From: Nymphaea colorata
Lineage: Eukaryota > Streptophyta > Magnoliopsida > Nymphaeales > Nymphaeaceae
Length of the DNA stretch: 64,000 nt
Assembly (NCBI RefSeq): GCF_008831285.2
Contig: NC_045143.1
Coordinates: 25,443,662-25,507,661, forward strand
Direction of reading: 5' to 3'
The stretch's first letter is position 1. Each line of letters begins with the position of its first letter. The notes below the pieces were generated by a model. The model was not told where the DNA came from. It ran no database searches and worked only from the letters and a program-made list of their open reading frames with translations. Shown piece by piece: positions 514-63,465 of the stretch. Position numbers and translations under genes: made by a program.

Positions 514-636
514 CTACTCCTTCACGAACTCAACCTGCATGTGGCCCGCGTAAGAGACGATAACGATCACGTAGCCATGGAGGATCATCTCCTCCCTCAC
601 CACATCTAGGGGTACGAACAGTAACCTCACGAAATT
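514..636 (-). CDS. possible terminal exon of an unidentified gene
   Basis: Forty codons and a TAG on the minus strand after an in-frame acceptor-like GGTAG|AAT. The peptide contains LLFVPLDVVREEMILHGYV, then IVIVSYAGHMQVEFVKE. Third positions are strikingly G/C (GTG, CTC, TAC, GGC), unlike the AT-rich surroundings, which is what suggests coding. I do not recognise the protein and no upstream exon was found, so this may be chance. Confidence 0.25.
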   Translation of the reverse strand, partial: NFVRLLFVPLDVVREEMILHGYVIVIVSYAGHMQVEFVKE

Positions 637-2854
637 CTACCTCTGCTTATCGGCTACTGAAGAAGAAAAAAGAAGATTGAGAGTTAGGGGTTGGTTCAGG
701 GCTGAGGTTCGGGCCTGAGAGTGGGAGCAACAAAATCTGCTGAGGCAGTGGGAAGATGGAGGCATAGCGAAGCTACCGCAGGAAGGAGGGAAGCGGAAGG
801 ATCGGAGCAGAGGTGGTAAGGAGATGGTGAGGTTTGGAGAAGAGCAGGAAGGACCACTAGTTAACAAACATGTTGCGGGGCACACGCAATGATGGAAACC
901 GGATGGCCACAATCAACATTCCAAAGCATGCGCTAAACGATTTCCATAAGCGGCACCTGCAAACAGGACGCACGCCCTAAGGGGAAAAATTTGGCCATTG
1001 AAAGGTAAGAGATGAAGTGGGCTCCATTTCACTGACTTACTTTTCTTTGGCCTTGGAGTAAATGACCATCCCTATGCCTTTGTTGGTCGGACCAAGCCAA
1101 GTGCTCTTACCCTTTTCATTTGCAGGAAGGACAAGGATTAAAAAAGTGTTTATTAGGATTACACCGAATAGCAAATAATTTCGTCAACTTTAATGAAATA
1201 ATGAGGCATTTACCTGAAATTCAAGTTAATCTAACTCAATACAAAGGAGAATTCAGATATGTAGGATTTGAACATATGACATCGGGTTAACCACAAGGGG
1301 CGTCATATGTGAAGGCAAACCACATGCCCTTTGCAGCACTGTTACTCATCAGTTGCTTTTGATATTCATCCACTTTTTTTTTCCTCATTACTTGACTGAC
1401 TGCAGAAGGCTTGATCTAGCCGGATTTCTATTGAGTTAACAGGCAGGCAGCCAAGGTTAGATCGACGAGGCCCCCAGGCATACCTTTCTCGACCTTTTGG
1501 CCAATATCAAGTGTAGACACCCAAAACATGAGAGATGGAACAAAATCAGGAGACCAGTTGTAGGCCGTCAATAACATGCCGAAAAAGAAGTCTTTTTTTT
1601 TTCCATAATGGGGCAGGGTTCAATGCGAGAAGAGTGACAAGATCCCAACAAATCCATCTCTGTTTTATGAATTCTATGGCCTGATGCCTGCTCCTTCCTA
1701 TAGGAGGAAAGAAGAGAAATGCCCATAACATGAATAAGTAAACTCAAGTTGAAGAATCTATATCAAGTCCTATCCCCGTTATCTACATAACCGTGAGAAA
1801 AAGCTAATCTCCTGCAGGTCTAACTTTCTCCACATCCTTTGCATTCCTTTGCATAGAAGTAAGGGCACTAACGAAGATAAGTTGATAACATGTGTTGCCC
1901 CACAACGCTGACATACTTCACATAAAAGTGAATAATGCACTCGGATTCCAATAACAGAGACATCCGCCACTTGACAATTGCTCCCTGACTCAGTGAGACC
2001 AACCGCTGAGCTGTTGATCACTAGTATGAAACATGGTGTTCGCCCTCCGCCAGTTGGCATTTTAGACTGCCGAGCAGAGCAGAAAGGCTGCCCAGTGTCA
2101 ATTCCCGTGGACATCTCTCCTTGTACAAGTCGATGACCTGCAACGTTTAAGCCCCCGCGCCCACGAGGATCGATTCATATAAACTAAGTAGATGCAATAG
2201 ATTCAAAACTGAGCTAAGAAGGAGAAAAAAAGGGTGCAAAATGAGATGCACACCCAGAACATATTTAATATGCAATATGATGCATGTCTTTAGATTAGAG
2301 AAAATTTGATAATTTTATTTGTAATTTCTAGGAAAAATAGGAAAACGGACAACACAAACCATCTGGAAGCTTAGGCCAAAGGACTAATCTTGGCAACGAA
2401 ACACAGATTCAGTATAAATTCAGGAACCCCACGATCATATGCTCGCAGTATAACAAAATCAAGTTCACAATCGAATACAATTCTGCTCTCTTTCTCTCTC
2501 TCCCTCTCTCTCTGTCTCCACAAATGAAATTACAGGAGCTTGGATAATGCACTCATACAACTCAGGCTCAAACTGCAGTCAAATTAATACATTACGGGCA
2601 GCCTCCATTTTCTATGAACAAAGACCCTTACACAATAATCCCAATCATTCGGTGAAGTTTAGAGAAACAAGAGTAACAGAGTTGATGGGCATACAGATGG
2701 TGCCCAACTTTTCTTTTTTCCAAGCCAAGGAGGAACAGGGGGAAAAAAGGAACACTCTTATCCTAAACCCAGGACCCTCTCCATTTATCTTACACTATTG
2801 TCCTTGAAACAACTTTAATATGGTTAAGTCAAACTAGCCAAATATCCGAATCCG
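637..2854. other. downstream flank of SEC24-like gene, no gene recognised
   Basis: Contains purine-rich sequence at 655-860, a CT-rich tract at 2486-2515 and several short open frames without family resemblance. No transposon ends were found. Confidence 0.4.
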
Positions 2855-2860
2855 TTTATT
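2855..2860 (-). promoter_or_regulatory. candidate poly(A) signal of the SEC24-like gene
   Basis: AATAAA on the minus strand, about 230 nt after the stop codon, a plausible distance for a plant 3' UTR. No transcript evidence is visible, so the cleavage site is a guess. Confidence 0.4.
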
Positions 2861-3087
2861 ACCTTCTCTTTTCTGATAAAGAGCTCTTCTGCACCTGGAT
2901 GTTGGCAACCTCCACCAAATGCATCAAAATTCCATTTCCCAATCTGAGATCCCAGAGACTCAACAGCTGCAGCGTGCAAGAATGGCCTAACACAAAACCT
3001 CTTGAATTGCATTTTCCAGATTGAAACCCCAGTATGTGGAACTTGGATATGGACCAAGGATTTTGATCTAGATCCTAATAAAACAGG

Positions 3088-3194
3088 TCAAGACATTTTG
3101 GTCTGAATTTGCCTATGGATATGCACGAGGAATTCCACATACGACAGGCCTGCTGGGGTCTTGTCTTCCACCATATATGAAAAGAATAGATGCC
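3088..3194 (-). CDS. SEC24: SEC24-like exon 23 (C-terminus and stop)
   Basis: Two bases, 34 codons and [23 protein letters not shown], then [14 protein letters not shown]. The acceptor is ATTCCAG|GGC. The last residues match the end of plant SEC24 closely. Confidence 0.94.
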
Positions 3195-6100
3195 CTGGAA
3201 TACAAGACGAAAGATGATATCGCAGACAAAAATTAGTTTTGGCAACAACCATTAGTTTTCACTTTTGAGATGACATATAACCCCTGGGTGACCAGCGGTT
3301 GGAGACTTGCACTATTACATGTGATTGCAGGTTTCATTATCTGTGGTAGTGAATATTGCAGCGTAAACGTGACCTGATAATGCATGGATTTTTTGATTAC
3401 ATAATCATCATGTGCACATAAGGACAATAATGACATTAAGACAGGTAAAAAACATATCAATGTGTAGTTGTATCATCAAAGTGGTCAAACTAAATGCCAG
3501 TCATGTCCTTTACCACTTACATGATCAAGATCATGCTGCAAACATGTACGAATGACAAAATATACTCAAAACAAAATGCATGATTATTCAGAAAACAGTT
3601 ACAATGATTTTAACAATGGCATTATTGCAGAAACTATACATGAACAATTTAAGTGCAATAAGAATTACTTGCAATCAATTTATAAGCATTTTTTTTTTCA
3701 ACTCAAAATGATGACCAGATAGAAGAATAACAGAAAATTGCTCTGTAGAAAATATGATGATGCGTAAAAACGAGTTCTAAACAATATAGTGGAATTTGAC
3801 TTTAATTCAGGATCTGATATGACTACACAATGGATTTGAGTCGGAATCTGGATTGTCTAGTCACTAGTGACTCAAATCCATTTGGTTAAGAAGCGGATCG
3901 AGATTTTCTCTAGGTCTTTTTACTGTCAGCAGAGTATTATCATGTTCTTCTTTATCTCTCTTATTTTTTAGTTGCTTTATAATAAATCAGTCCCGTTAGA
4001 TACCAAACATGTACGTGTGTGTAGCATGTCCATCCATGGTGCAGTAAAGCCAAGGACAGTGAAAAGAAATGAAAGTTACCAACACAAATTACCTGATGGC
4101 TCTCCTTTTCTGCATAATCTGAATCTGCGGTAAAGAAAAAAACAAAAGCTTTATTCAGAAAACATAAATAAGGTAAAGCCCTGTCAGTTCATAATCAGAT
4201 AACAAGCAAAACTGACTCATGCAATGACATAATGCATGTGACTTGACATCTAATGGAATCAAATGAGCTCATCTAATAGACCAGCACAAATCCAAAATAT
4301 TGCATCAGTTTTAGTACTTTATGACTAGAACAGAGTCAATAGCCCAACTAAGTCAGATGAGCTCCAATTATCTCATGCTTCTGATTTTACTTGGAACTGG
4401 AACAGATCATACCGAAGGTAAGAACATCTCTGGCGTCTTATATAATTCACCACTTCATTTAGCTTCCTTGATAGTTCATTGTCAAACTGCTGTAGCAAAA
4501 ACTGCACATGCCAACAAAGTCACTATAGGCGGCCACATAAAAAATGGTAAAAAAAAAATATTTACTAAAAAAAAAATCCATACGTTAGACAAGCTATTTT
4601 CTCTGTCTGATGTGCCATCATCTTTAAGTAAAATGTATCTATTGCATTTAATTTCCAAAAATAAGGTGCAATGAATTGCAAGCACTTGCTATGATTCAGA
4701 CTAGACATGCAACACAACAGAAAGCTGGATTTTAAAGCCATGGAAGAAAGAGAGATGGAAATCCAAAAAACATAGACAGTCCATGCACTTGATACGACGG
4801 AAAAGTCAAGTCTCTGCATAAAGCATCTGATGTCCAGTAGAAAGTGTATTCAAGTTGTCAAACATTTCCTTCTTCTTCTATCCTAATTTAGCTGTGACAT
4901 GTCCCACACTATAGAATATCTAATGCATGAGATTAAGATCACCCTGCTCCCCCAGTAGAAAAAGTAGCAAACTGGAGACTACTGAGTGCTTCAAAGAGCT
5001 ACATTTAATGTAAACCAAATTTGAGACACGAAGGAGAAATAAACTGTCAAATACTACCTGATTAGAAATGCTATCCACAGATGACACACCAAATAGTTGC
5101 TGTAAAATGTCTGGGTTGACAGAATTCCCAATATATACAAGACAATCCTCGCCATTTTCCAAAAGAAAGATTCCATTGTCAGTTATATGTTCACTTGATA
5201 GTGGTAGAGGAGGAGGCATAAGTGAATCATTTGTTTCCTGCAAGTTAAAAATGTTTACGTCAATTTCATGCATCATTCAGCAACAAGAATGTTTCACTAA
5301 GGATCAATATGGAACCTGATCGATAACTGCCTTCGAAGTGAGAGTATGGATAGGCAGCATTCTAGGATAAACAAGCGGAACTGCAGAAGATGCTGAGAGG
5401 GAGGCAACATGACTGATCCAGTAGGACCGTTCATCTATTCGGCCATCAACGCGCAACCCCACACTTTTTACCAATGCTGAAAAGAGCAAAAAATCTTATA
5501 GGTTACCATCGTTTTCCACTTAACATAAATTACGTTAAATTAGCATTACTTCTGCAATAAAATTTCCAGAAGTGAATTGGACCACAATAAATCATTTTTA
5601 TCCAAGTGCGAACAAAAAAAATATTCAGATTATCCAGTCATTCATGCAGGTTAAATACGACACAGTTAACTCTTATAAGTAGGTGAAAAGTCAAGGCTAC
5701 TAGCTAGATATAGTGAAGAAAATGCTCAGATGAATTGATTTTACGCAATTGATGCATATAGCAGAAAAACCGAGTTGCTCCTCAAAATTCTGAAATAAAT
5801 ACATAAGGATACAAATCAAGAGAAGACCTAAGGATTCAATGCAAAAGAATATGCAAAAGGAGCCTCTGGCTCTGGAAACTGGAATCAAACCAGGCCACCT
5901 TTCTTAATCTGAATCTTACACAACAGACCAAATGCATTTGATTTCCAAATATGAATTTATCTGACAGAAATTATAAAATTCCCCAGGGTATTGCCACAAC
6001 TTTATACACAATCACATAAACTATAACATCAGATAGGACATGCCTTTTGATGAAACAACTCCCAGAAACGTAATTGTACTGTTTTTGCTACATATTCTAT

Positions 6101-12100: not shown

Positions 12101-15100
12101 GAAAGGCACATTCAGCACCATCCTGAAATTTATCATCATGTTTGAACGTGACCATGATAGTTTTATCACAATCAATCTGCAGTACAAATGAAATCAAATT
12201 GAGCAAAATATTTTGGCAAAGCTAAATGACAGAGAACTACGCAACGAAGGATATCTGAGCTGATCTAATTAATTTTATACAGCAAAAAAAAAAAAAAGAA
12301 TTTCCAAGCATGCACGGATAAGTATTACTGGCTTACTGCAAGTCACAAGATGCATGAGGGATTTACAACTGTTGGAAAGATTCAAGCAGGAAATCAATAC
12401 AGGTCTACTGTTACTAAGCAGAAGTGTGGTCCAGAATCGAATGGACTAGTCTTCATTTCAATATTGGTACTTCCCAATTCATCTTAGGCTACATAGGCAA
12501 TTGAGGCATCCTTCATTGCCTTAATTGTCATCTACAAAAGCACCTGAACACTACAATTAAGACAAACTCATTGTTCTGTTATTTTATGTGCTGCACAAAA
12601 ATGGATTTCTGACATTTAAAAGTCTCTCTCTCTCTCTCTTGTCAGGATACTTGTTCACACATTAAAACATTGAACAGAAACAATTTTAATTGACAAATCC
12701 AACCTCAAGGAATAGTTCCACGAAACAAGGGAAAGACAATGCGGTGAATTTGTCAATGGCAATAAAGGCAGGGAAGATCTCTGCAATTGTTTATAAGTAG
12801 GAGATGAATTTGTGGAAAGAACCATTATTACTTTGTTGCATGTTTTGCAACCTAATTACTACTGACCTCGAAGTCCATAATTAAAAAAATACTAAACGGA
12901 ATTTATTGTAATTCCACTAAATTTAAGAAACCTAAAAATCAATGTGAAATTACACAACAAAAGAATTTGATGCATTTTTATGTTGAAGCAACTCGACTTC
13001 TAAAGACAAGCAACAAAAAAGCACAAGTTAAGATGAAGCAGAACACCTGCAAATATACTTCATGAACTTGATCAACTCCCCACATCTTTTTCATCAATAT
13101 ACAAGGTATAGAAAACTTTTTAGCAATGGATGCCTTGCCATGACAAATAAAGTCGTCCAAGAAAACAGCCTACTTTTTACGTAGGTCCATACTAAGCATA
13201 ATGTCAAAAGCGCCAGTATTGTTTCTAAACAAGGTTGCATTATCAAACATTTATTCATTGACATTGTGAAGAGGCAAATGAGTACAAAATGTGATATTTA
13301 GGTTTGAAATCACAATAAAGAACATCAGTCAAGGCTACACATAACATCATAAAATTTCATGGCATTAACTGTGTAGAAACACGAAGATCAAGAACAAAGG
13401 AAAACGATGAACACGATGTAACATGGAAAAACCTTCAGCAAGAGGAAAAAAACCACGGACGAGGAGGAACTGGCGCCCAGTAGCAACCAGACTCTCTCTC
13501 TCTTAAGATTTCATTAACCACTCAAAAATAGGGTTAGAACCCTTAAGTAAGGCCCAACAAGGGCTATACGATGGATCGGGTATGGATCCAGACCCGGTCC
13601 TGAAACCCATCTAACATGTTTCAACACTCCCTCTCAAGTTGGGCATACATATCAAACATGCCCAACTTGGATTCATTTCTCTCGAATGAAGTCGAAGATA
13701 GAGCTTTCGTCAGAACATCAGCAGTTTGGTCTTCAGACTTCATGTAAGGTAAGATTAACTCTTTAGCATCAATCCTTTCACGGATAAAGTGACGGTCAAT
13801 CTCAACATGCTTCGTTCTGTCGTGTAGTACAGGGTTGTTGGCTAAGTTGATTGCAGACTTGTTGTCGTAGTACATCTTCATAGGTCCTTCAATCTCTATT
13901 CCGATATCAGTCAGTAATATTTTCAGCCATAGTAACTCTGACACTCCCATCGCAATGGCTCTACACTTTGCCTCTGCACTAGATCGAGAACACACATCCT
14001 GTCTCTTGCTCCTCCAAATAACAAGGTTTCCTTCCAAGTAGACACAATGTCTAGTATCAGCACAACCTGCCCAGTCTACATCGGAACAGCCCTCGATCTC
14101 TAAAGTCTATTGTTTCACATACAAGAGTCCCTTGCCAGGATTTCTCTTCAAATAGCACAGTATTCTGTCCACAGCCTTCAGGTGTGCATCAGTAGGTGCA
14201 TGCATAAATTGACTTAGTACATTCACTACAAAAGTGATATCTGGTCTTGTAAGGGTAAGATAAATCAACTTTCCAACCAGACGTTGATATCTTCCCTTAG
14301 CTTCTTCACAGAGCAGCTCTCCCTCTCTGAGGCTCAACTTGTGTCCAGCATCAAGTGGGGTAGAAGCAGGTCTGCACCCCAACTTACCAGTCTCCTCCAA
14401 CAAATCTAATGTGTATTTCCTTTGGTTTAGCACAAGGCCAGTTCTAGATGTAGCAATTTCAATACCAAGAAAATACCTCAGTTTGCCAAGATCCTTAAGA
14501 TCAAATTCAGCAGCCAGTAACACTTTTAACTTGATGATCTCCTCCTCATCATCTCTTGTGACAATCATGTCATCCACATAGACAAGTAAAAGAGTGACCC
14601 TGCCCTCCTTTTTCTTCACAAATAGAGTGTGGTCTCCATTCCCTTGATTATACCCATGGCGTTGCATCACTCATCTGAGTCGTTCGAACCATGCTCTGGG
14701 TGATTGCTTGAGGTCATATAAGGCCTTTTTCAGCTTACAACATTTCTCTGGTCCTTCATATCCTGGGGGCATGTGTATGTACACTTCTTCTTCGAGATCA
14801 CCATTGAGGAAAGCATTCCTAACATCGAGTTGGTACATCCTCCACTCCTTCATCACAGCTAGGGACATAACAACTCTAACTATCTTCATTTTCGCAACTG
14901 GAGCAAAAGACTCTAGGTAATCAATCCCATATTTTTTACTAAACCCCTTGGCCACAAGACGAGCTTTGTATCTTTCAACACTCCCATCTGGTTTGTACTT
15001 GATGGTATACAACTATGATACACGGGTACGCCTCCAAAGGAGGCGTACCCTACCGGTACCGGTACGACACCGGTACCGGTACGACACCGGTACCGGTACG

Positions 15101-18100
15101 GGGCTGGGTACGGCTCCGGTACGCGTTGACCGTACCGGGTACGGTCAACGTACCGGAGGCCGTATCTGACCTTTTTCGAACACGGTCAAGTTTGACCGAG
15201 TCCAAATGTCTTATTTTTTTAATGATTATTTCATTTTAAATTTTATATCTATTTTAACGTTTAAAAAAAAACAAAAATCGTAAGGGTTTCGCTCGAAACC
15301 CTTTTCTCGTTCCTCTTTACCTCTCACGAGCCCGATGACGAAGGCAGCGGCAGCGGCGGCGAACGGAGGGCGGAATGGCGACAGTAGCGGCGACCGACGA
15401 CGGCAAACGGTAGGAGGCGACGACAGGCAGACTGTCTTACCTCTCAAGGTATATTTTTTGTCTTTTTGTTTTTATTTTTAAACCATTTCAGTGGCTCCAC
15501 CCCTGCCATCGCTGCCAGCGACGACCGGCGTCGACAGGCAGAATACCCATCGCCGCCAGCAACGACCGGCGATGTGTGTGAGAGAGAGAGAGAGATTCTT
15601 TGTTTTTACATGTTTCGGTAGTCGGTATGGTATGAAGCGTTTGGTGGATTTGTTCATTTATTCTTATTTGGGTTTGATTTGTATGTGCATATGGGTGGGA
15701 GACTTTGATCGATATAGTATCTGGTGTCTGAATATTATGTTTTTGTTGTCGGCTAAAGCTTTCTTTTGTGTTTCATTATTGGAATTTGCTTGTTCAGAGT
15801 TCTTTTCCTTCAACAGATAACTAATTGTCTAACTAGCGGTCACTTTTGTGTGCTGGTAAATCGTGCTTCTTGTTGCTCTGGCATGTGCAGCTGTTACATT
15901 TCAAAACAAGTTTAAAAGCAATAATTTGTATGGGCGAAAAGTCTTCTTTTCATGCAGTGATGCAGCTTTGCTTGTATAGCTTTCACTTGGGTGACTGCAG
16001 CTCTTCCCTAGTTATGGCTGTGAATCTGTCATATATCGTTTTGTGATAGGAATAGGATTCATCTATTTCAAATGATCCCTGTTTTTATTGGTTGTGTTGC
16101 AGCTCATTTGCTAGGTTCTGTTCAGACATAAGTTGTAATGGCTGATAAAGGAAAAGAAATACTGCCTCCTACAGGAAGTGGGAATGTAGAAAGCAGCAGT
16201 GGTAGTGTTAATACTTAATATGTTATTTTGTTTGAAATTTTTTGATATATATATATATATATATATGCCCGTGTGTGTACGGCCGTACCCCCGTACCCAA
16301 ATTTTTTGAAAATGGTCCGTACCCGTACCCGTACCCGCACCCGTACCTATGTGACATAGGTATACACCCACTTGGATCCAACCAAGTGAGCCGCCTCAGG
16401 AATCTTCACAACTTCACATGTCATGTTTCTTCTCAAGGCTTCCATTTCTTTTTTCATAGCATCAACCCACTTGGAATCACTCTGAGCTTCAGCAACGGTC
16501 CTGAGAATCACAGCCAAAGAAAGAGAAGATACAAAACACTTGTAATCCTTGCTAAGTCTAGAATAAGATACAAAATTACCAATTGGGTGTTGAGTACATG
16601 ACCTGACACCCTTCCTCAGGGCAATGGGAAGCTCTTCATTTTCTTTTTCAACCTCATCTTGAGTCTTCAAGGTAGGACTTGGTTCATCCAGGGAAGGAAT
16701 GACATTGGGATTAAAATTAGACCTCGCACCACAAGTCACCTCCTCTGCCCGAGCACCTCGTCTAGAGTAGACCTATCCAAACAAACGAAAGCCTTCCTTC
16801 TCAGTCTCGGTGTTACACCCTTTCTCCTTCTCAGGCATATCAACAACTGTGAGAGGTTCTGAACATCCTTTCCCCCTTTCCCCCTTTCATACTGATAATC
16901 AATTGTGATAGGTTCTTCTTTCTTGTAATCCAAAAAATTTGTAAATTGAATCTATTGACTGTGAGAATACTCTTCCCTAACCACAGACTTCTCTCCCTGA
17001 AGAGGATTCTCACAAAAGGAAGAGGCATGTTCCAAAAAGGTAACATCCCTTGTAACATAAACTCGACTAGTGATAGGATCAAGACATCTATACCCTTTCT
17101 GAGTGGAAGAATACCCAACAAACACACCCTTGATAGACCGGGGGTCAAGTTTCTTAACATTTGGACTGTGATCATGAATAAAACACACAACCAAACACAC
17201 GAGGGGGGAGAAGAAAAGGTTGACGACTTCCCCAAAAGTAAGGAATGAGGAGTCCGACCATTCAACACACGACTTGACATGCGGTTGATGAGGTACGCAC
17301 TAGTAAGAACTACATCACCCCAATAGTGTTTGGGAAGATTTCTCTGAAACAAAAGGGCTCTCGTGACATTAAGGAGCTGGCGGTTCTTTCGCTCAGCCAC
17401 CCCGTTCTGAGGGGGGGTATAACTACATGACGTCTCATGAACAATCCCCCTTTTTCGAAGGAAATCCTCAACTGACTGACACATATACTCACGGGCATTA
17501 TCCGATCGCAAACTTTTAACATTTCCATCATATTGAGTTTGCACAAGAAGAATGAATGTCTCTATGATTTGAGGTACCTCACTGCGATCTTTTAACAAGT
17601 ACACAAAGGTGGTCCTAGAGAAGTCATCAATAAAAGTAATAAAATATTGAAACCCTTGACGGGTATGAATTCCCGAAGGCCCTCACACATCAGAGTGAAC
17701 CAAGGAAAAAGCTTCATTAACACAACTAGTAGAAATAGGGTACGAAGCCCTCACATGTTTGGCAAACTAACATACATCACAAGAAATCAAAGACAAATTC
17801 AGAGTGGAACACAAATCGAGAAACAACTGTTTCAAAATCCCGAAAGGTAAATGCCCAAGGCGTTCATGCCAATACAAAAAGGACTGAAGACAATCTTCTC
17901 TTCTCTTTTCTGTCTTGCTGATCGCTGTCATAAGAGCCGTGGCCATGCGTATGGGAAGACGAGATAAGCCATCAGACGCCAAACCAATCTCAATCCTCTT
18001 CCCTGTCACCAAGTCCTGCAAAACACAACGATTCGCAGAGAAAATGAGTTCACAATTCAGCTCTTTAGTAAGTTTACTAACTGATAAGAGATTTAAAGGA

Positions 18101-21100
18101 AGCTAAGGGACATGTAATGCTCCTCGCACGTGAAATTTGTCCAACAAGGACAGACTCCCTTCTCCGGCCACAGAGGTAGAGGAACCATCTACGAGAGATA
18201 CTCGTTCCCTTCCAGAAGCCAACTTATACTCATGAAACAATTTAGGGTTACCTGTCATGTGGTGAGTAGGACCACTGTCAACAATCCATTCTCCCAAGTA
18301 GGAGTTAACTTTATCCCCTACAATGGCAAGAGCATGATTAGCCTTCGTCTCATCTGATGTCTCGGCCGGATTGACATCGATCCGACCCAAATAGGCCCAC
18401 AGTTCACGAAGCTGTTCAACAGAAATGGAGGCCTTGCCTCCACTAGACTTGGTATCCTCCGACACAGGCGTCTTCCCACTAGAAGATCTCGCCCTGTTAC
18501 CCCTTTTTTCTGGATGAAGATCCCAACAGAAATCCACAGTATGGCGAGTGCATCTACGAAGAGGTTTGGGAGCACTACCCGGACCATGACTAACAAGTGC
18601 AAATCTCTCATTATAAGGTATGTGATCCCTCTTCCCCCCAGGGGTAACAAGTCTTCTCTGTTCTTCAGCCTCAACACAGGAGTAGACATCTTCAATACTG
18701 AAGGATTCTTTAGAGTTAAGAATCCGACTCCTGATATTTTCAAATTCGTTGCTTAGCCCTGCTAAGAACAGGAATATCCGATTCTCCCATTCTTTGGCAA
18801 CGTACTGCATCTGGTCGTCATGACAATGCCAAGTAGCCTCGGAATGGTAGTCAAGATCCTCCCATTTGGATTTTAGAGCTGCATAGAAATCTGCGACCGA
18901 GAGATCCCCTTGCCTGAGAGCACACACATCCTTCATCAGTTGATACACACGAACCTTCCTCTTCTTCTGGCCATACATTTGTTCCAACATGATCCACATA
19001 TCTCTCACAGTCTTCTTACGAAGAATGAGAGATTGAATATCAGACGAGACCGAATTAACAATCCAAGTTTTCACTTGGCTGTCCTCAAGAAACCAAGTAT
19101 CCCAAGCTATACTGTTTGCATCAGGTTCAACCTTACTCTCATTCACATATGCAATACGGCCTCGACCAGCTATTCCCATGGTGATGGCGGCAGTCCACTT
19201 AAGATAATTTTCCTTAGTAAGGCGAATGGTAGTGACCTGAACAGGAATAATGTCAGTTCTATAAGCCACAACTTCATTCGGATCAGTGTTGACGGTCGAC
19301 GAGGAAGAGGCTGCCATAATTGCAGACCTGCCTTACAAAGAGGGCAAAAAGAAATAGTAGCAGCGGCAGAACACGAACAACAAAAGGGAACAAACGGGCC
19401 AAAAAACAAGAACTCCACCACAGCAGAAACAGGGGTTGAACAGAAACAACCTGCCGGGCGAGGCAGCCGATGGCAGCAGCGTTTCCAGGCGATGCAGTCA
19501 AGTGATGGCGGCGGCGACAGTGGCAGCTAGGGCTGGCTCAAAGAGCTCGAGCTCGAGCTCGACTCGAACTCGAGTTGAGCTCCCTAACACAAGCTCGAGC
19601 TCGACTCGATTACAGAAAGTCGAGCTCGAGCTCGACTCGCGTAACTCACTTAACTCGTTTTCTACAGGACAATAACAGCAAAACAGAGCACAGGACAATA
19701 ACAGCAAAACAGAGATGAAAAAAAACAGAGGACAGGACAATAACAGCAAAACAGAGATGAAAAAAATGTAATCAATGTAAAAACAAACACACTAAAATGA
19801 GAACAACGAATTTACTATCAATAACAACAAAATAAAAGCCACTAGAAAACACCACAAGATTCAACACACAAAAGCCAAACTCCTCCATCCACCAGAATAT
19901 GAATTCATTTGGAAGCCACAAAAAAGACCAAAGCTATAAACCAAAAAAAAAAGAGGGAGAAGATAAACCCTAACCGGGAGTCCAGGACAGAGCTCATGCA
20001 TCACCGACCACGCAAGCGAGACCCAAGCGCTTCTTCTATTCTTCAGCATAAAAATCAGACCAAGAGGCTGCTCCGCTGCTGGCTGCCGCGCTTCGCGGCT
20101 TCACCCCTTCGGCCTTCCCCTTCTAGATGGAACATGGAAGACCGAAGGCCGTGGACCTTGGTCCTCTCTCGTGACCTCGTCTCGTCTGATGGTCATGGTC
20201 GACGGAAGAGGGAAGACGATTTCGCGGTCGCGGTCGTGGTCGATGGAAGATGAGAAATCGGGAAGAGAGAGAGACGCCAGAAGAAATTCAAGACGTGAAG
20301 GGAAGATTGGCTTTTGACATTTCGTTTTAACTTTTAACCCTAAACCGGTTTCATGAACCGGTTTGTACGAGTCGAGTCAAGTTTACACGAGTCGAGTTCG
20401 TGCAACTCGAACTCGACTCGTGTAGCGTTTCGAGTTTAATGGGTGAGCTCGAACTCGACTCATTTATAAATGAGTCGAGTTCGAGTCGAGCTTTTCCGGG
20501 CGAGTTTGAGTCGAGCCCGAGTTGGCTCGACTCGTTGTGCAGCCCTAGTGGCAGCGGCAGCAGGAACAGAGGACAGAGTGGCGACGTTAGGTGCTGGTAG
20601 AGGCGACAGCGACGGTCTGGGGCGATGCTCTTCGAAGGGCGAAGAAAAAAAAATCTCAGGCGCAGAAGGTGCACCGTCGGGCACAGTAGCCTTCGCCTGA
20701 GTCCACCAGAACTTCACAGCGGCATGCAGGACAAAAACAGAGAGTCACCGGAACAGAGAGACACCGAAACTCCAGACGGCGACGAGTGCGTCGCAAACTC
20801 CAACAATGTCAACTGCGTCGCTGGAAGAGATGCCGGAACTTCACAGTGTCAGGCAATGTCCAACGTCGGGCAACGAACAGTAACGGCACGTGATTGGAAC
20901 CGTCGGGCGATGGGCAGTGAACAGTACCAGCACGAGTCCTCCTCTCACACGGCCACAACAGAAACAAAACGCGAATCAGTAACGCCGAAACCTTACGGCT
21001 CTGATACCATGTAGAAACACGAAGATCAAGAACAAAGGAATACGATGAACACGATGTAACGTGGAAAAACCCTCAGCAAGAGGAAAAAAACCACGGACGA

Positions 21101-30940: not shown

Positions 30941-33900
30941 ACGGCCCTTTTGTCTTTTTCTCTCTATGCCAAGAGTAACTACAATTAAGTTAATAAGGAA
31001 AAGGGAGCATAAATGTGCTCATACATGTGCATCATTCTGAATATATATTTTACTCAATTCACAAATAGCAATTTTAGGGTCTTGAACAACCTAGTCCAAT
31101 TGCCATCTTAGCTAAGGCTGAACAACGAGCCGAGCAAATCGAGCTCGGCTTGTTAAAACTTGGCTCGAAATCGAGTTCGAGTCGGCTGTTTTTGCACACG
31201 AGCCGAGCTCAAGCTCGTATTTTGGCTCGTCTTTTTAGTCGAGCCAAGTTCGAGTTCACTGAACTCGAACTTTTAAGCTCGACTCGGCTTGAGCAAAAAT
31301 CGAATACTACTTATTTTGTTTATTCTGTTTTGAGTTTCATTTCTCGACGTGTGTTCTGTCTCCTCACTTTCTTTTTTTTCATCCAAATGGGAGGCCAGCA
31401 CAGTCTCACCGACGACGGGCGATCCGTGAGGCTGCAAATTGCTTCTCCTCTGCTGCAGATCAGCTAATGCCCAAGGTGCTATACTTTCTCCATCTCTCAA
31501 TCTTAAACTCCCAAGGCTTCAGAAAATCCTCATTCAAGTGAGGGTTTTAGAAGTCCTCACTCAACGAGGGTTGAGTGAGTGAGGGTTTCTCCTTGCTACC
31601 TCGCTTGCTTGAGCGAGGGTTTCTGAAACCCTATTGCTCAAGTGAGCGAGGGTTTTTTGAACCCCTTGCTCAAAGGGTTTCTCTTTTTGAAACCCTTAAA
31701 AACCCACACTTGACAAGGGTTGCAAGGGTTTCTTGAACCCCTTTCTCAAAGGGTTTCTCTTTTTGAAACCCTTAAAAACCTACGCTTGACAAAGGTTGAA
31801 CGAGCGAGGGTTTCTTGAAACCACATTGCTCGAGCGGGTGAGGGTTTCAAAGTCTGAGCTTTTCCCATTTCAGAAACCCTCATGGGAGGGAGCGAGAGTT
31901 TCTGTTCATAGAGTCCTCTGGAAATTTTTTTGTATTTATTTTTCTAAACTTAGATTCTTCCCTCTTCCTCTGCAGATCGACCTTCCCCTATCGCCCCTGT
32001 TGCTGTAAACGAGTTTATCGAGCCTTGGACTCGAGCTCGACCTGAACAAGAAGCTGTCATCGACCTTCCCGTCGCCCCTGCTGCTGTAAACGAGTTTATC
32101 GAGCCTTGGACTCGAGCTCGAGCTGAACAAGAAGATGTCGAGTCGAGCTCGAGTTACTTCCATCGAGCCATTATCGAGCTCGAGCCGAGCTCGAGCTCAA
32201 GATTTCATTAGTCGAGCCGAGCTCGAGCTGGTTAAACTCGGGCTCGACTCGGCTCGTGTTCACCCCTAATCTTAGCTTGTCAATGAAAGCAATGTTGTAC
32301 GTATCGTATGATACGGGGCCGTATCGTTTGCAAAATACGATACGATACACCCCCTGTATCGCAAATGGGGGTGTATCATACCTGTATCGTACGATACGTG
32401 CGATACGGGCCCCCGTATCGTACGATACGGTGCGATACGGCTCGTATCGTACGATACGGGCTGATTTCTAAAAAGGAGACTTGAACCCCATTTTTTCGAG
32501 TTTTTTTTATAAAAACCCACCCCTTCCTCATTTCTAATCTATAGATTGTACCGTTTTAGAGGGAAATCATTGATTTCCATTGTGAAATCATCGATTGTCA
32601 CCGTGAAATCATCTATTAAACCATGGATTTGTGCATGGGTGGCTGATTCCCATTGAGAGGAAATGGTTTTTTTTTAAACCATGAAGATAAAGATGAAAAA
32701 GAATGATATTGTTATGAATTTTGATGTCTATGAAGTATGAATGATGAACCGTGAACGTGTAAGTTTATAGCATTTAGCAAAATAATAAGTCTATCATTAT
32801 CTAAAAGACTAAACCATGTTTTCTATGAAGAATTTATTATTTTTAATTTTTTCTGATTTTTTATGAATTTTTTGATTTTTTTTAAAAAAAATTCTGATTT
32901 ATTATTATTATTTTTTTAAAATTTACGATACGGTTACGATACGTTACGATACGGCGTATCTTAAAGCCCGACCGATACGCCTTACGATACGCTTTTTACA
33001 ACATTGAATGAAAGTCTAACACACATACCTGCCCACCAGTAGTTCTGGGAATTACGGACAAGGAGGCAATGTCGACATAGCTTTGGGTTGTGGCAAATAA
33101 GTCTACACAGACCTGAGAGAAGTACAAATACAAGGTTAGAGTCTTAGACACACCATCACAGTGTATTATAGGAAAAATATAGCATTCCTAAATTTACCTG
33201 ATGTTCAGCAAATTCTATTGCCATGGTCTTTAAGGTTTTGTCTGCTGGCTGAAGCAACTTATGGGCCTCCTGCCTCAGAATCAAATCTCGTATATGTTAA
33301 AAGGAATTTCAGGATCATGCTATAAGTTCAACAATAAATATATCTACTTCCCCAATGACTACTACATGAGCGAAGCAGTAACCTGAACACAAACAAACTA
33401 CCAAACTTAAATACCAGGCCATTGACTCAGCTATTTGTGCAAATAGCCAGCTTCAACTTATTCAGCTAATCTCACCCCTCACTCTTGACATGAGGGGACA
33501 AGTCCGACTGATAACTGATACCGAAATATATACAGTATACACATACACACACAAACACTGAAATAGAGAGACGGTGAAGAGTGAAGGTGTGCAGACAGAA
33601 CATTATCCAACAAAGCTGTGATTCTCCAAAAAGGAACAAAAAAGAAGATAAATTGCACACACTCATGGACAAGTTCATGTCCACCAGAAGTTTCAGTACA
33701 CATAAAGGCATGAGTAGGAATAAACTCAAGTTAAGAGGCATGTGCCTGCAAGATGTTGTGATTTAACTATTTAAGTAGGAATTTCTAAACCTTCCAGGAA
33801 TTTTTGTTTTGTGATGTGTTCATATGAACGGAGTATATTAAACCTACTGGCATACCCAAAAGTAGGTCCATGCATGTAGGTGAAGGAAAAGCCTGTCAAA

Positions 33901-54900: not shown

Positions 54901-57900
54901 AGATAAGGATATTACAAAATATTATCAAATGCAAAGTGAATGGGCCCAAACAAGCAACTGATTGGTCAACAACTAGTCAGTGATTCGTTGCCTAAGTTGA
55001 CCAACCTATGTCTGACCTACACCTTTACAATTTGGAGACCAAAGACGCATCCATAGGCTAGCATCCACAGCTGACTGGCAACTAGTCGTTTAACAACATA
55101 TATTGCAGTTTAGAGAGCATTTTGTCATTCTTTATTTAAGCTTCCAGGAACCAGTAACGTGTAAATTGTAAACCATGTCAAACCAAGACCGATCAATATC
55201 CAAACAGAAATCGATTCTTAAAAGGAGAACTTCATTTTTGCAATTTAAGCGTAAAACAATCCTAAAAGAGACACTTCATGCAAATATTGAATTCTTGAAG
55301 AAGTCATTGATATATTTAAGCATAAAAGTGATTCTAAAATAATCATTGATTTTTATGACCTTACTACTAAGTGAAGCATGATATCCTATGTCACATGGGT
55401 GTGGGTGCTGGTGCGGGTGCGAGATGAGGCAAATTCCAAAAAAAAATATTGGATGCAGGTGCGTCGAGGGCATAGACATATATATATATATATATAATAT
55501 GTTATATATAAGTAATTTTATTATTCTATATTTTAAATTTTTTTGTATCAAGATTACCTTAATTTCATACAAGATTCAAAGTTTTATTAAATAAAATAGA
55601 AGGAAGAAAGAGAGCAAAGAGAAAAGGAAAGGGAAATGATAGAAGGAAAAAATGAAAAAAAAAACACAAGACAAGAAAAGAATGGGCCCGACACGGTCGA
55701 ACTGAGTCAGGTGCCATGTCAGGCCACATCCACACCTGAGTCGACTCAGGTGCGCCACCATTTTTGGCGCACCCGTGTGACTTAGATGATATCATACCCA
55801 CTGTAACATGAGACAAATCATTAATAAGAGGAAAACAAACTTAAGCTGGCATAAGTTGGAAGAATAAATTCTTAGCAACTCGATCTTCCAGATACATACC
55901 ACAAAGATTGCAAATAAAGTGTTTCCCATGATCAATGAACTTCATGAAAGGATTGATATAACCCTTACAACGAGAACAGCGAACAGGTCCACCTTCCCCA
56001 AAATCCACAACCTGAGGTGATCCATAATAAAAGCATGTAAAATAACACCACAAATGAACCTATCCAAAGGTTATCCAACTGAAAGTGTGTACTAAAAGTC
56101 TAAAACTAATATTATTGAGTACTGAATAAATGCTTTAAGAAGAACATCCATATCCTTTATTCCTTTTGCATTGCTACATGTAAAAGCCACTCTCTGAAAC
56201 CGAATGCAGATCAGTCCACCTAGTGTCTTTCCCTTAACAATGTGGAATAGCACACGGATCATTTGTTTCCCTTAATGTACAATCGTTAGTACAGTCACAA
56301 GGCCGTCAGGAGCATATCTATGGTCCTTGAAGTAAGGGACATAAAGCTCCAGCTGACTTGATCTTAGTTCTTTGACACAGAGAACCAAGAATGTGATTTT
56401 TTTTAAAATAAAAAAATGCTTATTACTTCCCTCATATGGTCACCCAATCCAGCAACTAACAATCATGAAAAGCTATTATTATTTTGTTGAAATATGAAGG
56501 GTGTAAATTTGCCAGAAGCAGAACTACATGAAAGACGGCTCTTCTGTATACATATCGAAATCAAGCAAAGTTATCATCCAACAACTCAATCCTTTTGGGA
56601 ATTTAAAATGAACTATTAGGTAGTGAAGCAGGGAAAAGAAAACATTCACAATTGGGCATCTCGAGATGTAAGACAAGTCCCTTAAAGAGTACTGAGAAGT
56701 GCAATCAGTAGTCTGCTAGACTGCTTCCAAGCCTAGCTAGATTTCTTTCTTTTCCGCATCTGCATGACCATTTGAAGGAAAGGGAACAGGATTTATGAAC
56801 AAAGACAACAATTCTTACTTTTGTTGGGCAGCATTACACAGGAAATCTGGAAGAAATTAAGCATTCATATGTCTTCATGTCCTAAAAGAACAAAGAATGA
56901 AAGAAGACTTCAAGTGCCAAAGCACAAGAAGGAATGAATAAAAAAAAGGAAGATTAAACCTACCTAAATGACAACCAGTTGGTTTCTAATTTGGGATTAC
57001 ATTCCATTTGGATCACAGAATTGAATTAGCTGAAAAAAATCTTAGTTCAAGCACCGATATTCATATGAGCAGGAATTGGACCACCCACAATCTATCCAGA
57101 TCATCATTCTTCTGTTTGTAACCAGAGATATGGGTCCAGAGTCCAGACCAGTTATGCAGAATAGACCAATCAACTCATAAAGCTAGTTGCCTAGTTGTGC
57201 CCTTGGCCTGCATGACAGAACCAGCTAAACTAAAACAAAATAAGTGACCCGGTCATTTTGCTGAGATATCATACTATTAACTAAAACTTAGTACCCTCAA
57301 CTGTTCAAGATTATATTTAGACTCCCAAGGAAAATGTGATTACTCATTCGATTTTTCTAATTCATACATTGCACATATTAAGAAATTCTGAAACCAGTTA
57401 CTCATTGCAATATATCATGGTAAAATTATAGGTCCAGAAAGCTCTGATCTCATTTGAGGAAAGCCAGATTCAAAAAGAACACCTCAGCATGAAGGTCAAC
57501 AACAGCTGCAGTTCATAATCCACAAGTAAGAAGCAACCATGTTAAAGGTGTTGACCCATGGAACCTATTGTTGGTTAATGTGTCAACGAAGTCAATCAGA
57601 TACACACCCCAGGAAAGGTAGGCATGAAGTACTATGATGGAGCAAGATTGAATATTACTTGGATAGGCTCCTCCAAAGGATGAGGAAATGCTAAAGGTTG
57701 AACTAGCAGAGCCAATGGCATGCTTGATGTTGACAAAAGGTCACTGGTGCAAGGAATCTGGAAACATTTAGATGAAAAACGAACTTCAATAATAGTAAAA
57801 AAGTACAAACTAGGTGAAGAATAAATTCATATCCAAAAGTAATATTTGAACTGGCATAGACAAGTACCTGATTCATGGTACATCTCATGTACCGTGGGCT

Positions 57901-58506: not shown

Positions 58507-59011
58507 CTAGCATTTAAAAAATATATGGTAAAGGAATGAGAAAAAGGATTATGATATTTCATCAAATAATGAAACCAGAACCGGCAATTGAATCCACACA
58601 ATGATAGTTGACATGAAAATAACACTATTTCCGAGATAAATCATGGTGACAGAAGTCACAATCAATAGATATTTACAGCAACTTAAAGAACAAATAGGAA
58701 CATAGAATGAGCGGAAAGATCTTGCAGTTTATTGCAAAAATTTGATCAGAAAAACAAAGATATGAGCATCAATTACACAATAGTTACCCAATAGATAATG
58801 TTGCCTGTGACCTAAACTACAGTATCCACGGCTGAGTTCCTTGCAGGTACATGTCACCTCAGTAATACATAAGTACATGATTGCATCTGTACATGTACAC
58901 ACGTGCACATGTGCACTTATGCATGTATATGTACAGAATTACACTTGACATATCATAGAAGGCTAAGAAAATGTTTTCCCCACTAAGAAAAGCTATTTAG
59001 CTATACTATAA

Positions 59012-59617
59012 TGTTAGGAATTCTTGATCTCTGAGACTCTTTCAAACAAGAGCATAACACCTAGCAGTGTAAAGGTAATCAGTGCACTAAGGCACACAAC
59101 TTTTAATCATAGAAGCAACCAGAACAGTGCACTAAGCCACCAAGAGAAGGCTGATAACACAGCAACAAATAGTTCAATAAAGGCACCAAGTCCTGGAAAA
59201 TCTACTGTCAATACAGTAGCATATGATCCACAACAATGGCACTAAGGCCCCAGTGCACCAACGCACAATATCAAGCAATAAACAGGGCACCAAAGCCCAA
59301 CAATTCATAACAGGGCATCAAAGCCCAACAAGAATCACACAGCTGAATGAAAGAGAATTTCTATTCAAGAATGAAGAAAGGGCTGTGAAACAGCCTCTTT
59401 TAAGAATATGTTACAAGGGGTTTAAATAAGACAGCGAAGAGCTGTTGGAGAACCCAACGGAGTCCAATATCTCTTACAAAGGAATAAAAGACAAAAATGA
59501 AAATAAAATGGATATGAAAGTAAAAAATACAAAAAACATTCTATACATGTATATATCAGACTACATATACGTGTATATAAACCTGAAATATATATGTGTA
59601 CTTTATATATTCTAACA
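59012..59617 (-). mobile_element. solo LTR
   Basis: 606 bp bounded by TGTTAG...CTAACA with a perfect 5-bp duplication TATAA (59007-59011 and 59618-59622). Read on the minus strand it has a TATTTAAA-type box (about 59425) and short internal repeats (GGGCACCAAAGCCCAACAA and a variant, 59286-59332). No internal retrotransposon sequence flanks it, so it is an LTR left after recombination. It is unrelated to the LTRs of elements 1-5. The minus orientation is inferred from the TATA-like box. Confidence 0.8.
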
Positions 59618-59622
59618 TATAA

Positions 59623-62272
59623 ACCTAAGTGTAGTGACTAAACCAGACTACCATTTACTGAAACCCAAAAAGAAACTGAATTGGTCATCGAGTTGCAATG
59701 AGATTAACCTCAGGCTTCATAGAGGCTGACTACACCCAGGCATAAATGATGTATGCACATACATGGGCAAAGCTGAATTTTAATGGTCAAAAGAAAGAGA
59801 ACAAGAGATCAGCTATGATAAAAGAATAAATGACAATTACACAGAACATTTAATAAGATTAATCTATGTAATTTCTTCCTAGTGAAAGTACAAAACTCTC
59901 TACGTAAGAACATTGAGCAGGGAGCATGTACTTCAAATTTTTTATCTTCCTTTACAATCAAGCATGGTAGCAAGCAAGAAATTTGTAACTTGACCAAATA
60001 ATATTTGTTTATTCCAGCAACTTCCTCACCCCTTCAGCAGCGTAAGCTTATTTGTCCATAAAAAGATAACTAACCTAATGAGAACTTTGGAGAACACATG
60101 ACACAAATGGATGTGTTTAGAATTCCAGAACTCCAAATGAGGTTGGGATAATAGTCACAAACATTGATCCTGGTGAGGCTAAGTCTTATGATATGAAGGA
60201 TACCCAATTCTCCTTAAATGATTCTAGGAACTCTTCAGAACCAGTACACAAACAATCATTTTCAGTAAGAAGTCCAAAATTCCGAATGAGGCTGTGTCCA
60301 CAATCACAAACAATGGTCTAAACTGATGCAACATATCAGGACATTGATATTTTTCTAATAGATCTAGTAAAACATGTCAGGAAAGCTTGAAAGTTTAAAA
60401 GACTACGGAAAAAATAAGTAGGGAAAAAATGGAAAAGTTATTTATTAACGAATAGCAAATAAATGAAATTTTCACAATAATATTCTAATAATGTCGAGAT
60501 ACTATAAGAGATACTAAATTTCATGTATTTTCAATATCTTGTGAGATATTAACATTTATGCTTTCTAATATCTCATGATTTACAACTTACAGTTAACATT
60601 ATTATATGAACAACAATAAGACCAACTTGTCTGCGCCAATGCAACACTAGGTTGCTACAGGTGCAAGAAACGACACAAAGGGTTAAGAGACAGACCAGAT
60701 ATAACTGTTACCTTATTTGAGTAATAGGCTATGCTGCTAAACGCATTAGGCAGAGCCTAGGGATTGAGTAAAACATAGAACCTAGGCACTTGTGCCAAAA
60801 CAAATAAAACAAAAATAAAATGCAACATTAGATTTTATATACAGTCACATATATAGACACATCATAATACTCATATATAGTCAATTTTTTTTCGTGAGTC
60901 CTTTTGACATGGGCCCTAACCTATATCCACAAGCTTCAAAGCCCCAGACACCTAGCGACGGCCACCAAGCTCTCCCCAGGTCACGTGCTTGTCAGCTGTT
61001 GGAGAAATTTGTCTGCACATCAAATTTGTGGCCGCATTCACTCTACTCTGAATCAACGTCCTGTGTCAAGCAAGGCCAACAATAACAATGTGCATCTATG
61101 GTGATATGTCCTACTGCCTTGCAGCATGCCATGCGTTGCTCACAAGCTGATCCCATGCACCAATTGCCTCACCTTTGACTTCAGGTCCTGAGTGTCAAAA
61201 GAATCCGTCAATGTTTTCTTGCAGGCACGGCCTCACTCAACCCAGCACAGTTGGGAAGGATAGGATTTCACTCATCCCATCAATAAACCCCATCCCAAAA
61301 ATAGTAATGTTGCAGCAACCATCAGTAACCCCACCCCACCCCCACCTTTCCATTCTGTCTTGGGACATGTGTTGAAGTATCTTTCCATGTGTCTACTGCA
61401 ATGACCCAGAACTGCTGCCACATACCACACAACCCCATCATCCCACTGCTTACCACACATCTTTTGAGCTCCCTCAACCTAAACCAAGGTTTTGGTGTTC
61501 GCTCAGATCAGTAACCCTCTAGGATCATAAGTTCTCAGTCCGAACCTGGATCCACCTAAAACTTGGACTGAGTACCCAAACTTATTTGAATATCCAACCT
61601 GCAAAAACTTAGTTAAGCCAAGTTGGAAGGCAATGACCCTGGCCAAGACAATGTGTCATGGAATGGAGTTCATCAGTTTTTCCTTGGAGGGCCCAAGATC
61701 CTGCTTAAGCAGGTCTACCACTGGTAAGGCCCACATCATCAGGTGTCCCAAGTGAAGTTCAAGGCATTTTGCATAAAAACAGCTAGCTAGGTGAATGACC
61801 AAGCTTGGGGACCAAGCTGCTAAGCAAGCCTTTGACAACATAGCCAGTAGCGTATTGAATCAAAGACATTCAAATGGGGTCATACCGAAGACAAAATTAG
61901 AGTGAATTTTTACATGTAATTAGGTTTAGAGTCTTTAGACATTTAACATCTTCAAATGGAATTATAGAGAAGACAAAAATAGATCTAATTTTTACATGTA
62001 ATTAGGTTAGACATGTAACATCAAGTTCAGTACCAAAACAATTTTTCTCATTGAACTTGACCAAGTGGATTTGGAATCAAATCAAATATTAGACTATAAG
62101 CAATAAAGCAGACCATCAACTTCATAACACAATGGCACATGAACCCTGTTGTATGGAATGCAAAACTGCAAATTACACCCACCAAGCTCAAAAGCATCTA
62201 AACTAATGGCTCTGAACCATGATACCAGAAGCATACATAATCAAATTTTCCTTAAGCTAGAAAACAAATGGT
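59623..62272. other. upstream intron sequence, no gene recognised
   Basis: Probably an intron of the SEC24-like gene. AT-rich to 60890, then a more GC-rich stretch (60900-61830) with short open frames on both strands and no recognisable family. No proline-rich SEC24 exon was found. Confidence 0.45.
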
Positions 62273-62510
62273 CTAAGTCACAAGGATATGCCAAAAATGG
62301 TGACGCACCCGAGTCAACGCGGGTGCGGCCCGACAATACACCCAACTTGGTTTGACCGAGTCGGGTGTGGCTGGCAGCGCCCAACTTTTTTTTTTTTCCT
62401 TTTTCCTCTTCCTTTTTTCCTCTCCCTCTCCTTCCCCCTTTTCCCTTTGCTTCTCTCTCTTTCCCTCTTTCCTCTGGATATGCTTCCCATGATTTATTTA
62501 CCATTTTAGT
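62273..62510 (-). mobile_element. fragment of hAT-like MITE, CTATGTCAC family, GGGTG variant
   Basis: Starts CTAAGTCACAAGGATATGCC and continues with CAAAAATGGTG.CGCACC and GACCG.GTCGGG text. These match the inverted right half of the 55386-55785 element, followed by a T- and TTCC-rich core. The other end was not found, so boundaries and duplication are unknown. Confidence 0.6.
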
Positions 62511-63167
62511 AAATTCAATTACTTTATAGCATGGTATAAGATTTAAATATTTGGTAGCACAAAATCCACAGCCATGAATTCATAGATATGGGGCAATTCA
62601 AATGGTTGATTATGTAGTTTCGCTTGCATAATGCCGTCATAAATTGTGGTGCAGTACGAAAATAGTTAAGCGTGTTAAGCACATGCATCATTGTGCATTT
62701 GGGCAATACAACCAGATTTTGTTTACAGCAGAAAAGTAACGAAAATTAGGCACCCATTATAGAAAGTCCATTCCACTCTTTTCATTTTGCAACTTTGCTA
62801 TCAAATGACAGCTTGAAACATCAGATGGAAAATACTTTTACCCTGAGTAACATGCAAGTCAATTGCAGTAACTGCACCTGCCCACTCAGGTCCAATCAAA
62901 CCCTATAGAATTAAGTTACTAAAAAAAAAGGTTCATCCTTCTAGCTTTAGGGCTCAATTTCTTGCTCCCAAAATCACCAGAAGCTTCATTTTCATAAGTC
63001 CCTTCTCCCTCTCCATCTCTTTTTGTGTTTGGGTTTCCATGACTAACCAGCAACAGCAAGAAGACATCTGGCAGCAACAACCATCCATTTCCATCTCTTT
63101 CTCTCCCTCTCTCTCTATCTCAGTTCCCTCCAATGAATTTGATGAAGACCAATCACCGAGAGGCGAG

Positions 63168-63465
63168 TAAGCCTGGGTACCAGGCCGGGCCGCCACCGTG
63201 TACCCGGTACCCTGCCAGGTCGGGCCTGGGCTCGGGCCGGGAAAACGGGCTATCGGGCCGGGCCCGGGAACCGGTTGTGCAGCCCAGGTCGGCCCGGCCT
63301 GGCCCGTAAATAATTTGTAAAAAATATTTGTTATTATTTTTAAACTTAATAATGTGTATTTTATAATTGAAATATATTTTATATTATTAAAAATAATTAT
63401 TTTATAATTAAAAACAATTTTTTATTATCGGGCCCGGGCCGGGCCGGGCCCGATGCCCACCCCTA
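63168..63465 (+). mobile_element. small hAT-like MITE, GGGCCCGGGCC palindrome family
   Basis: 298 bp. Ends TAAGCCTGGGTACC and, inverted, TAGGGGTGGGCATC, with perfect 8-bp duplications GAGGCGAG (63160-63167 and 63466-63473). GGGCC/CCGGGC runs fill both ends; the middle is AT-rich. Confidence 0.88.

Follow-up and report, generated by a model that had tools for sequence, protein, structure and literature searches.

A set of hAT-type transposon families with branch-specific end arrays in the Nymphaea colorata genome

Six short elements, A to F, in a 64,000-nucleotide stretch of Nymphaea colorata DNA (the window; C6:25443662-25507661 of the 408-Mb, 783-contig assembly that was searched) are non-autonomous hAT-type transposons, E being hAT-like. 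They are very probably deletion derivatives and relatives of several hAT branches, each with a BED finger that would read its own word in the element ends. The families, hAT elements with branch-specific end arrays, are real and well supported, ordinary in kind and unusually informative as a set. In the window, the elements and their target-site duplications (TSDs) are as follows:

15013..16359, + strand: element C, ends CTATGATACACGGGTAC / CTATGTCACATAGGTAC, GGTACG/GGTACC array, TSD GTATACAA/GTATACAC (7/8)
19528..20547, + strand: element D, ends TAGGGCTGGCTC / TAGGGCTGCACA, TCGAG array, TSD GTGGCAGC (8/8)
31113..32268, + strand: element A, ends TAAGGCTGAACA / TAGGGGTGAACA, TCGAG/CTCGA array at both ends, TSD ATCTTAGC present twice (8/8)
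32290..33006, + strand: element B, a MITE, ends CAATGTTGTACGTATCG / CAATGTTGTAAAAAGCG, GTATCG convergent dyads, TSD AATGAAAG (8/8)
55386..55785, + strand: element E, hAT-like, ends CTATGTCACATGGGTG / CTAAGTCACACGGGTG, GGTGCG repeats, TSD ATGATATC (8/8)
63168..63465, + strand: element F, ends TAAGCCTGGGTA / TAGGGGTGGGCA, GGCCCG/CGGGCC array, TSD GAGGCGAG (8/8)

As the first-pass annotation of this DNA had proposed, all six elements have inverted termini and 8-bp duplications, the latter perfect in five and 7/8 in C. The terminal inverted repeats are short, and their first 10-12 bases are mostly the same at both ends. Element C is inserted in a copia-like pol gene, and its borders are supported because the frame of that gene is open across the site when the flanks are joined with one copy of the duplication. 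A DNA search of the genome returned 1614 (A), 1447 (B), 1244 (C), 1844 (D), 444 (E) and 372 (F) candidates, of which the best 40 were scored for each element; 8, 20, 9, 8, 11 and 20 copies, respectively, were fetched, a non-random choice by score and the presence of both ends. Within this selection, duplications matching at no fewer than seven of eight positions flank 7/8 copies of A, 17/20 of B, 9/9 of C, 4/8 of D, 7/11 of E and 7/20 of F, and the last two figures become 5/9 and 3/16 when duplicates of the window insertion are left out, so that the 8-bp duplication typical of hAT elements is weakest in F. Re-paired flanks reached 7/8 in 0/42 (A), 0/272 (B), 0/72 (C), 0/12 (D), 0/12 (F) and 3/110 (E) cases, two of the three E matches being between L066 and L067, copies of one insertion. 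A relaxed TSD search of the old D, F and B copies yielded one F copy (L088) at 8/8, which was left uncounted; random placements reached at least 7/8 in 90/1020. Copies without an 8-bp duplication, which the first-pass annotation had named as an outcome that would speak against it, are thus a minority of the selected copies in A, B and C, half in D, 4/9 in E and the majority in F. The identification as hAT elements stands, on the 8-bp duplications of the copies and on hAT transposases with matching ends; E, with its TSD and the terminal CTATGTCACA that it has in common with C, may belong here as well, its own enzyme not having been found.

The duplicates mentioned above are L066-L067 (E) and L077-L080 (F), which carry the flanks of the window copies (85-100% identity over 40 bp) and therefore represent a duplicated segment and no separate insertions; flank identity in the five other copies compared is at most 65% over 40 bp. 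E and F lie 7.8 kb apart in the window (55386-63465), and the same spacing separates an E copy from an F copy on C3 (C3:7439559 and 7447316). About 7 kb beyond the window, C6:25514828-25515996 holds a BED match and a DUF659 match with one stop inside.

In their two terminal stretches, the window copies contain 27 (A), 18 (B), 19 (C), 28 (D), 5 (E) and 9 (F) motif occurrences, and other copies contain 14-29, 13-23, 9-16, 24-41, 1-7 and 1-6, respectively. First-order Markov resampling, a control distinct from an exact shuffle, gave family-wide means of 2.8, 0.9, 1.4, 4.6, 0.2 and 0.8 in the same order, with maxima of 11, 5, 6, 13, 3 and 3. In A to E, counts at the ends exceed both the inner part and the resampled sequence, and the inner part of F is about as dense as its ends (3.9 per same length). 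As such, the dense subterminal arrays described by the first-pass annotation are borne out in that they are conserved within families and stand above resampled sequence, but they are weak in E and F, and the F array is also internal; between copies, conservation is clear in A to D and weak in E and F. A tally of one-off variants revealed no clear sign of CG decay inside the arrays.

The arrays differ in geometry. GTATCG sites have convergent neighbours at one preferred 8-bp offset, in 54/72 cases at 16 transposase-bearing loci and 70/96 at 20 MITE loci, and about half of their neighbours share an orientation (126/257 and 172/346, respectively). TCGAGC sites are overlapping dyads, with only 27/137 in the same orientation, and TCGAGT sites are more often direct (36/62). 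The label "palindrome" fits GTATCG and TCGAGC; as the general rule that had been claimed, it fails, since GGCCCG, ATCCGA and GGTACG are mainly direct repeats (same-orientation neighbour pairs 55/101, 75/91 and 51/72) and E has no palindrome array. Short direct repeats of this kind, together with array counts that vary between copies and a block of ~31-bp repeats within the array of L006, are what would be expected if the arrays were by-products of slippage or end structure in GC-rich tandem or hairpin DNA, amplified from different seeds and read by nothing specific. We consider this explanation unlikely: the same word occurs in transposase-bearing and non-autonomous elements, and across proteins of 58-77% (GGCCCG) or 58-63% (TCGAG) identity, GTATCG keeps its single preferred convergent offset, and other hATs are known to need subterminal repeats, as set out in the consulted part of PMC10368747. 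We prefer a specific reader within each branch.

Transposases were taken from the top-scoring matches of three protein searches, with 150 scored each of 1113 hAT_C, 1131 DUF659 and 488 zf-BED candidates, and from these searches 16 whole loci, 10 DUF659 loci and 18 three-prime parts were fetched. Among the whole loci, GGCCCG arrays are found at L002, L004 and L008, TCGAG at L005, L006 and L009, ATCCGA, a type absent from the window, at L007, and GTATCG at L010-L015; no dense array was seen at L001, L003 and L016. The duplication is 8/8 at L002, L004-L007 and L009-L016 and 7/8 at L008; at L001 and L003, a search for ends flanked by a convincing duplication gave none. These two loci have intact BED-hAT frames that are sister to the ATCCGA branch in the tree, and they are possibly domesticated; L016 contains a DUF659-BED element at 1734-5034, which has the ends CATTGTCACAAAA and the duplication GTTTAAAC. 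The GTATCG array is present at all 10 DUF659 loci, eight of which (L098, L099 and L101-L106) combine a perfect TSD with B-type ends, one end not having been found in L097 and L100. The 18 three-prime hAT_C parts comprise seven with GGCCCG, three with TCGAG and two with ATCCGA, and six in which no array was seen within ~2 kb; L116, L117 and L119 are weak assignments with four GGCCCG sites each, and L117 also has six TCGAG/CTCGA sites. A transposase frame, a TSD of at least 7/8 and an array occur together at L002, L004-L015, L098, L099, L101-L106 and L139.

The hAT C-terminal dimerisation domain (PF05699) was called in L001-L009, L013, L015 and L139, and went uncalled in L010-L012, L014 and L016, which have DUF659 and BED. 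A zf-BED domain was called in L001-L004 and L010-L016 and fell below the cut-off in L005-L007; it went uncalled in L008 and L009, the longest frames of which are without all or part of the finger, and in L057 and L139, where a CxxC...H finger was read by eye. The enzymes are of two kinds known to Pfam, hAT_C with hAT-like RNase-H, and DUF659-type, and the suggestion that the families form an undescribed group is not supported. A literature search by array letters gave no match on plant transposons, and a title search gave none on these plant arrays among the matches listed. The principle is already known, and the useful part is the presence of five matched word-finger pairs in one genome.

The search for autonomous partners succeeded for B, C and D, for which both ends match a transposase-bearing element, reached only the branch level for A and F, and gave none for E. 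Over 80 bp per end, B is 77.5-91.2% identical to the DUF659-BED elements L098, L099, L102-L104 and L106, with the best values for L099 (91.2%) and L103 (89.4%), and L101 and L105 share its terminal bases. The exact end pattern CARTGTTGTACGTATCGTACGATACG occurs 146 times in the genome and its reversed control 0 times. Among the first 100 listed of these 146 B-type ends, a same-strand DUF659 match lies 0.8-2.6 kb inward in 26 cases (150 DUF659 matches scored of 1131 candidates), and opposite-strand or outward matches number 0; by end variant, the linkage is 18/29 for CAATG and 8/71 for CAGTG. At C1:11338183-11339284, two B-type ends lie head to head with a DUF659 match adjoining.

Element C retains 26 codons from the start of the transposase gene of its partner L139, an element at 59-3601 of its locus with the TSD AGTAGAAG present twice, a GGTACG array, ends 83.8% identical to those of C and a 698-aa frame that contains DUF659 and hAT_C; against the C ends, the identity of elements from other branches is at most 64%. 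A longer C copy, L057, has a 155-codon frame with the finger at 1043-1507 and without the catalytic part, and a protein of this kind, with the finger alone, could act as a competitor of the complete transposase. In a protein search with this frame (150 matches scored of 397 candidates), several matches lie directly behind C-type ends, e.g. C7:1861101, C4:1273544, C4:6190311 and C9:7530734. The partner of D is L006 with L037 (759 aa, TSD CATTCAGC, ends 84.5% identical to D), other branches reaching at most 63%. D-like sequences are clustered on C13 and C15 (e.g. C13:16223616 and 16232786), several at ~9.1-9.2-kb steps, as if inside a larger tandem unit.

At the branch level, the ends of A are 77.5% identical to L005 and 76.2% to L006 over 80 bp per end, compared with at most 59% for other branches, and the 3' end TGTTCACCCCTA of L123, an A-type terminal repeat, links A to that locus. 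The ends of F are 76.2% identical to L002 and 67.5% to L004, against at most 54% for other branches. For E, no transposase was found: its ends are 60.0% identical to L139, no better than unrelated pairs, and L140 has an E-like 3' end GGGTGCGGGTACG, a C-type finger, a broken frame and a 3' array of mixed words, its 5' end not having been identified. On C1, two E-type ends have DUF659 elements nearby, but an assignment of E to these was rejected, since those loci carry GTATCG arrays.

The missing enzyme of E, the mere 76-78% over 80 bp per end between F or A and their best partners, and the lack of any transposase stretch in the MITE copies by tblastn (nothing at E 0.01 with 16 transposases, the L139 enzyme not yet among them) would fit an explanation in which the non-autonomous families only resemble the ends of the named transposases and were moved by other, unseen enzymes. 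This seems improbable in view of the close end matches of B with L099 and L103, the linkage of B-type ends to DUF659, the first codons of the partner gene in C and the finger still present in L057. Descent from, or kinship with, the named branches is the preferred reading.

The tree was built from 26 Ac-like C-terminal parts, 19 rows labelled by array and 7 unlabelled, with L124 dropped for its poor match. On the 19 rows, the three array labels can be accommodated with 2 changes, the lowest number possible, compared with a minimum of 5 and a mean of 7.9 in 300 shuffles; without the three weak labels (16 rows), the tree again needs 2 changes, and shuffles give a minimum of 3 and a mean of 7.4. 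Protein identity is 58-77% in the GGCCCG branch, 58-63% between L006 and L005/L009 in the TCGAG branch, and ~35-40% between branches.

The finger varies with the array. In the finger region, phmmer aligned CTSSMKRHKC of L006 with QTSNLCRHKC of Hermes (8edg). The finger of L006 is the only one aligned with Hermes in this way; all others were placed by eye on CxxC...H, the length of which varies between branches. With the conserved His numbered as Hermes 71, the compared positions are 67 and 70. They are H/R at 9/10 GGCCCG loci, the tenth being L119, in which the finger is deleted; L116 is frameshifted but readable, and L117 and L118 have a stop in or beside the finger. The pair is S/R at 5/6 TCGAG loci (L123 is broken), L or R/N at 3/3 ATCCGA loci, and R with H (12), N (1) or Y (1) at 14/16 GTATCG loci, no finger having been found in L097 and L100. 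GGTACG goes with R/A in L057 and L139, and also in L140. Among loci without a dense array, L001 and L003 have H/K and L016 has R/Y, and L112 and L114, where no array was seen, have a TCGAG-type helix. The putative contact residues 67 and 70 are thus alike within an array type and distinct from one type to another, and the proposed check, whether the BED finger changes along with the array, had a positive outcome at the loci examined. The five array types are also five branches, and the agreement between helix and word is partly shared descent.

Nearly all loci with an array have Arg at position 70 or 67, L007 being an exception, and every word contains CG. The same CG would also suit a reading in which the arrays are bound by host proteins or by the DNA methylation machinery instead of the BED finger, with CG words as methylation switches, and the regulation of the maize element Ac by methylation of its ends counts for it. 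As a replacement for the finger, this is very unlikely, since it leaves the joint change of word and transposase branch unexplained; it is compatible with reading by the finger and does not exclude it.

The families are furthermore not independent of one another. A and D have the TCGAG word in common, and C and E share the ends CTATGTCACA, so that neither the claim of a separate array or site for each family nor a treatment of the six elements as six separate systems could be maintained. The exact pattern CTATGTCACANRGGTRCGGGT occurs 695 times in the genome and its reversed control 0 times. A further type, L141, has the CTATGTCACA end and the mixed word GGATACGGGTACGG; at its locus, the starts of two related frames of 670 residues are 2.7 kb from each other (C9:23387470 and 23390202), with the L141 3' end between them. 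C (GGTACG), E (GGTGCG) and L141 (GGATACGGGTACGG) share the terminal repeat yet differ in word, which suggests that the array can change faster than the repeat. This set may represent a change of word by rewriting of the arrays at both ends while the terminal repeat is kept, possibly caught in progress.

These data are best explained by a model in which the N-terminal BED finger of each branch would read one word, namely TCGAG, GGCCCG, ATCCGA, GTATCG or GGTACG, of which many copies lie directly inside the two ends. The array would gather and hold the transposase, which would then cut at the very ends and leave an 8-bp duplication on insertion. Branches would drift to different words through changes in the recognition helix, with the array being rewritten to match. 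The model draws on the ends, duplications, arrays and end-matched transposase-bearing elements, and on the way in which branch, array and finger residues go together. From sequence, we infer binding of the array by the finger, with the word chosen through residues 67 and 70 (Hermes numbering). It is about an even call that this one genome holds a natural set of BED recognition codes, with five branches, five words, distinct residue pairs (H/R, S/R, L or R/N, R/H and R/A), a match of Arg to CG, and both-end rewriting of the array with the terminal repeat kept.

To our knowledge, the joint change of a transposase and its ~20-30 element sites is an open problem, and we know of few BED fingers with a known word. 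With five finger-word pairs in one genome, and close relatives in each branch, both questions come down to simple binding tests, and the set allows one to ask how a BED finger chooses its DNA word. For annotators, the array word together with the first ten bases provides a key that predicts the branch of the moving transposase.

Ac/Ds of maize and Tag1 of Arabidopsis are hAT elements with repeated subterminal words, like the elements described here; the Ac word, AAACGG, differs from all words of the present set, a comparison at the level of the word. Published work places BED domains in host transcription factors and in immune receptors of plants as well. In its consulted part, PMC10368747 cites end requirements beyond the terminal inverted repeat for Tag1, and it describes the BED domain of Hermes (housefly) as binding subterminal repeats with base contacts via Q64, S66, N67 and R70, two domains binding cooperatively on a quasi-palindrome. 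The CGGBP-type hAT domains covered by the consulted text of PMC8097297 resemble the present set in that different BED-bearing hATs have different words, often CGG or CGC, that match their own subterminal regions, as is the case for all four hAT proteins that yielded a motif; they differ in being mostly domesticated animal proteins, and no plant branches with matched arrays appear in that text. Hermes offers the closer likeness in sequence: L002 and L006 match Hermes chains (L010 had no match in the PDB at E up to 1), the TSxxxRH finger core of Hermes recurs in the TCGAG and GGCCCG branches, and, as far as the source describes them, its ends likewise hold many short subterminal sites, some in inverted pairs. 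Unlike Hermes, with its word AAGT, the elements of Nymphaea colorata use words that contain CG, and A, B and D carry 13-41 sites in their two 200-bp ends.
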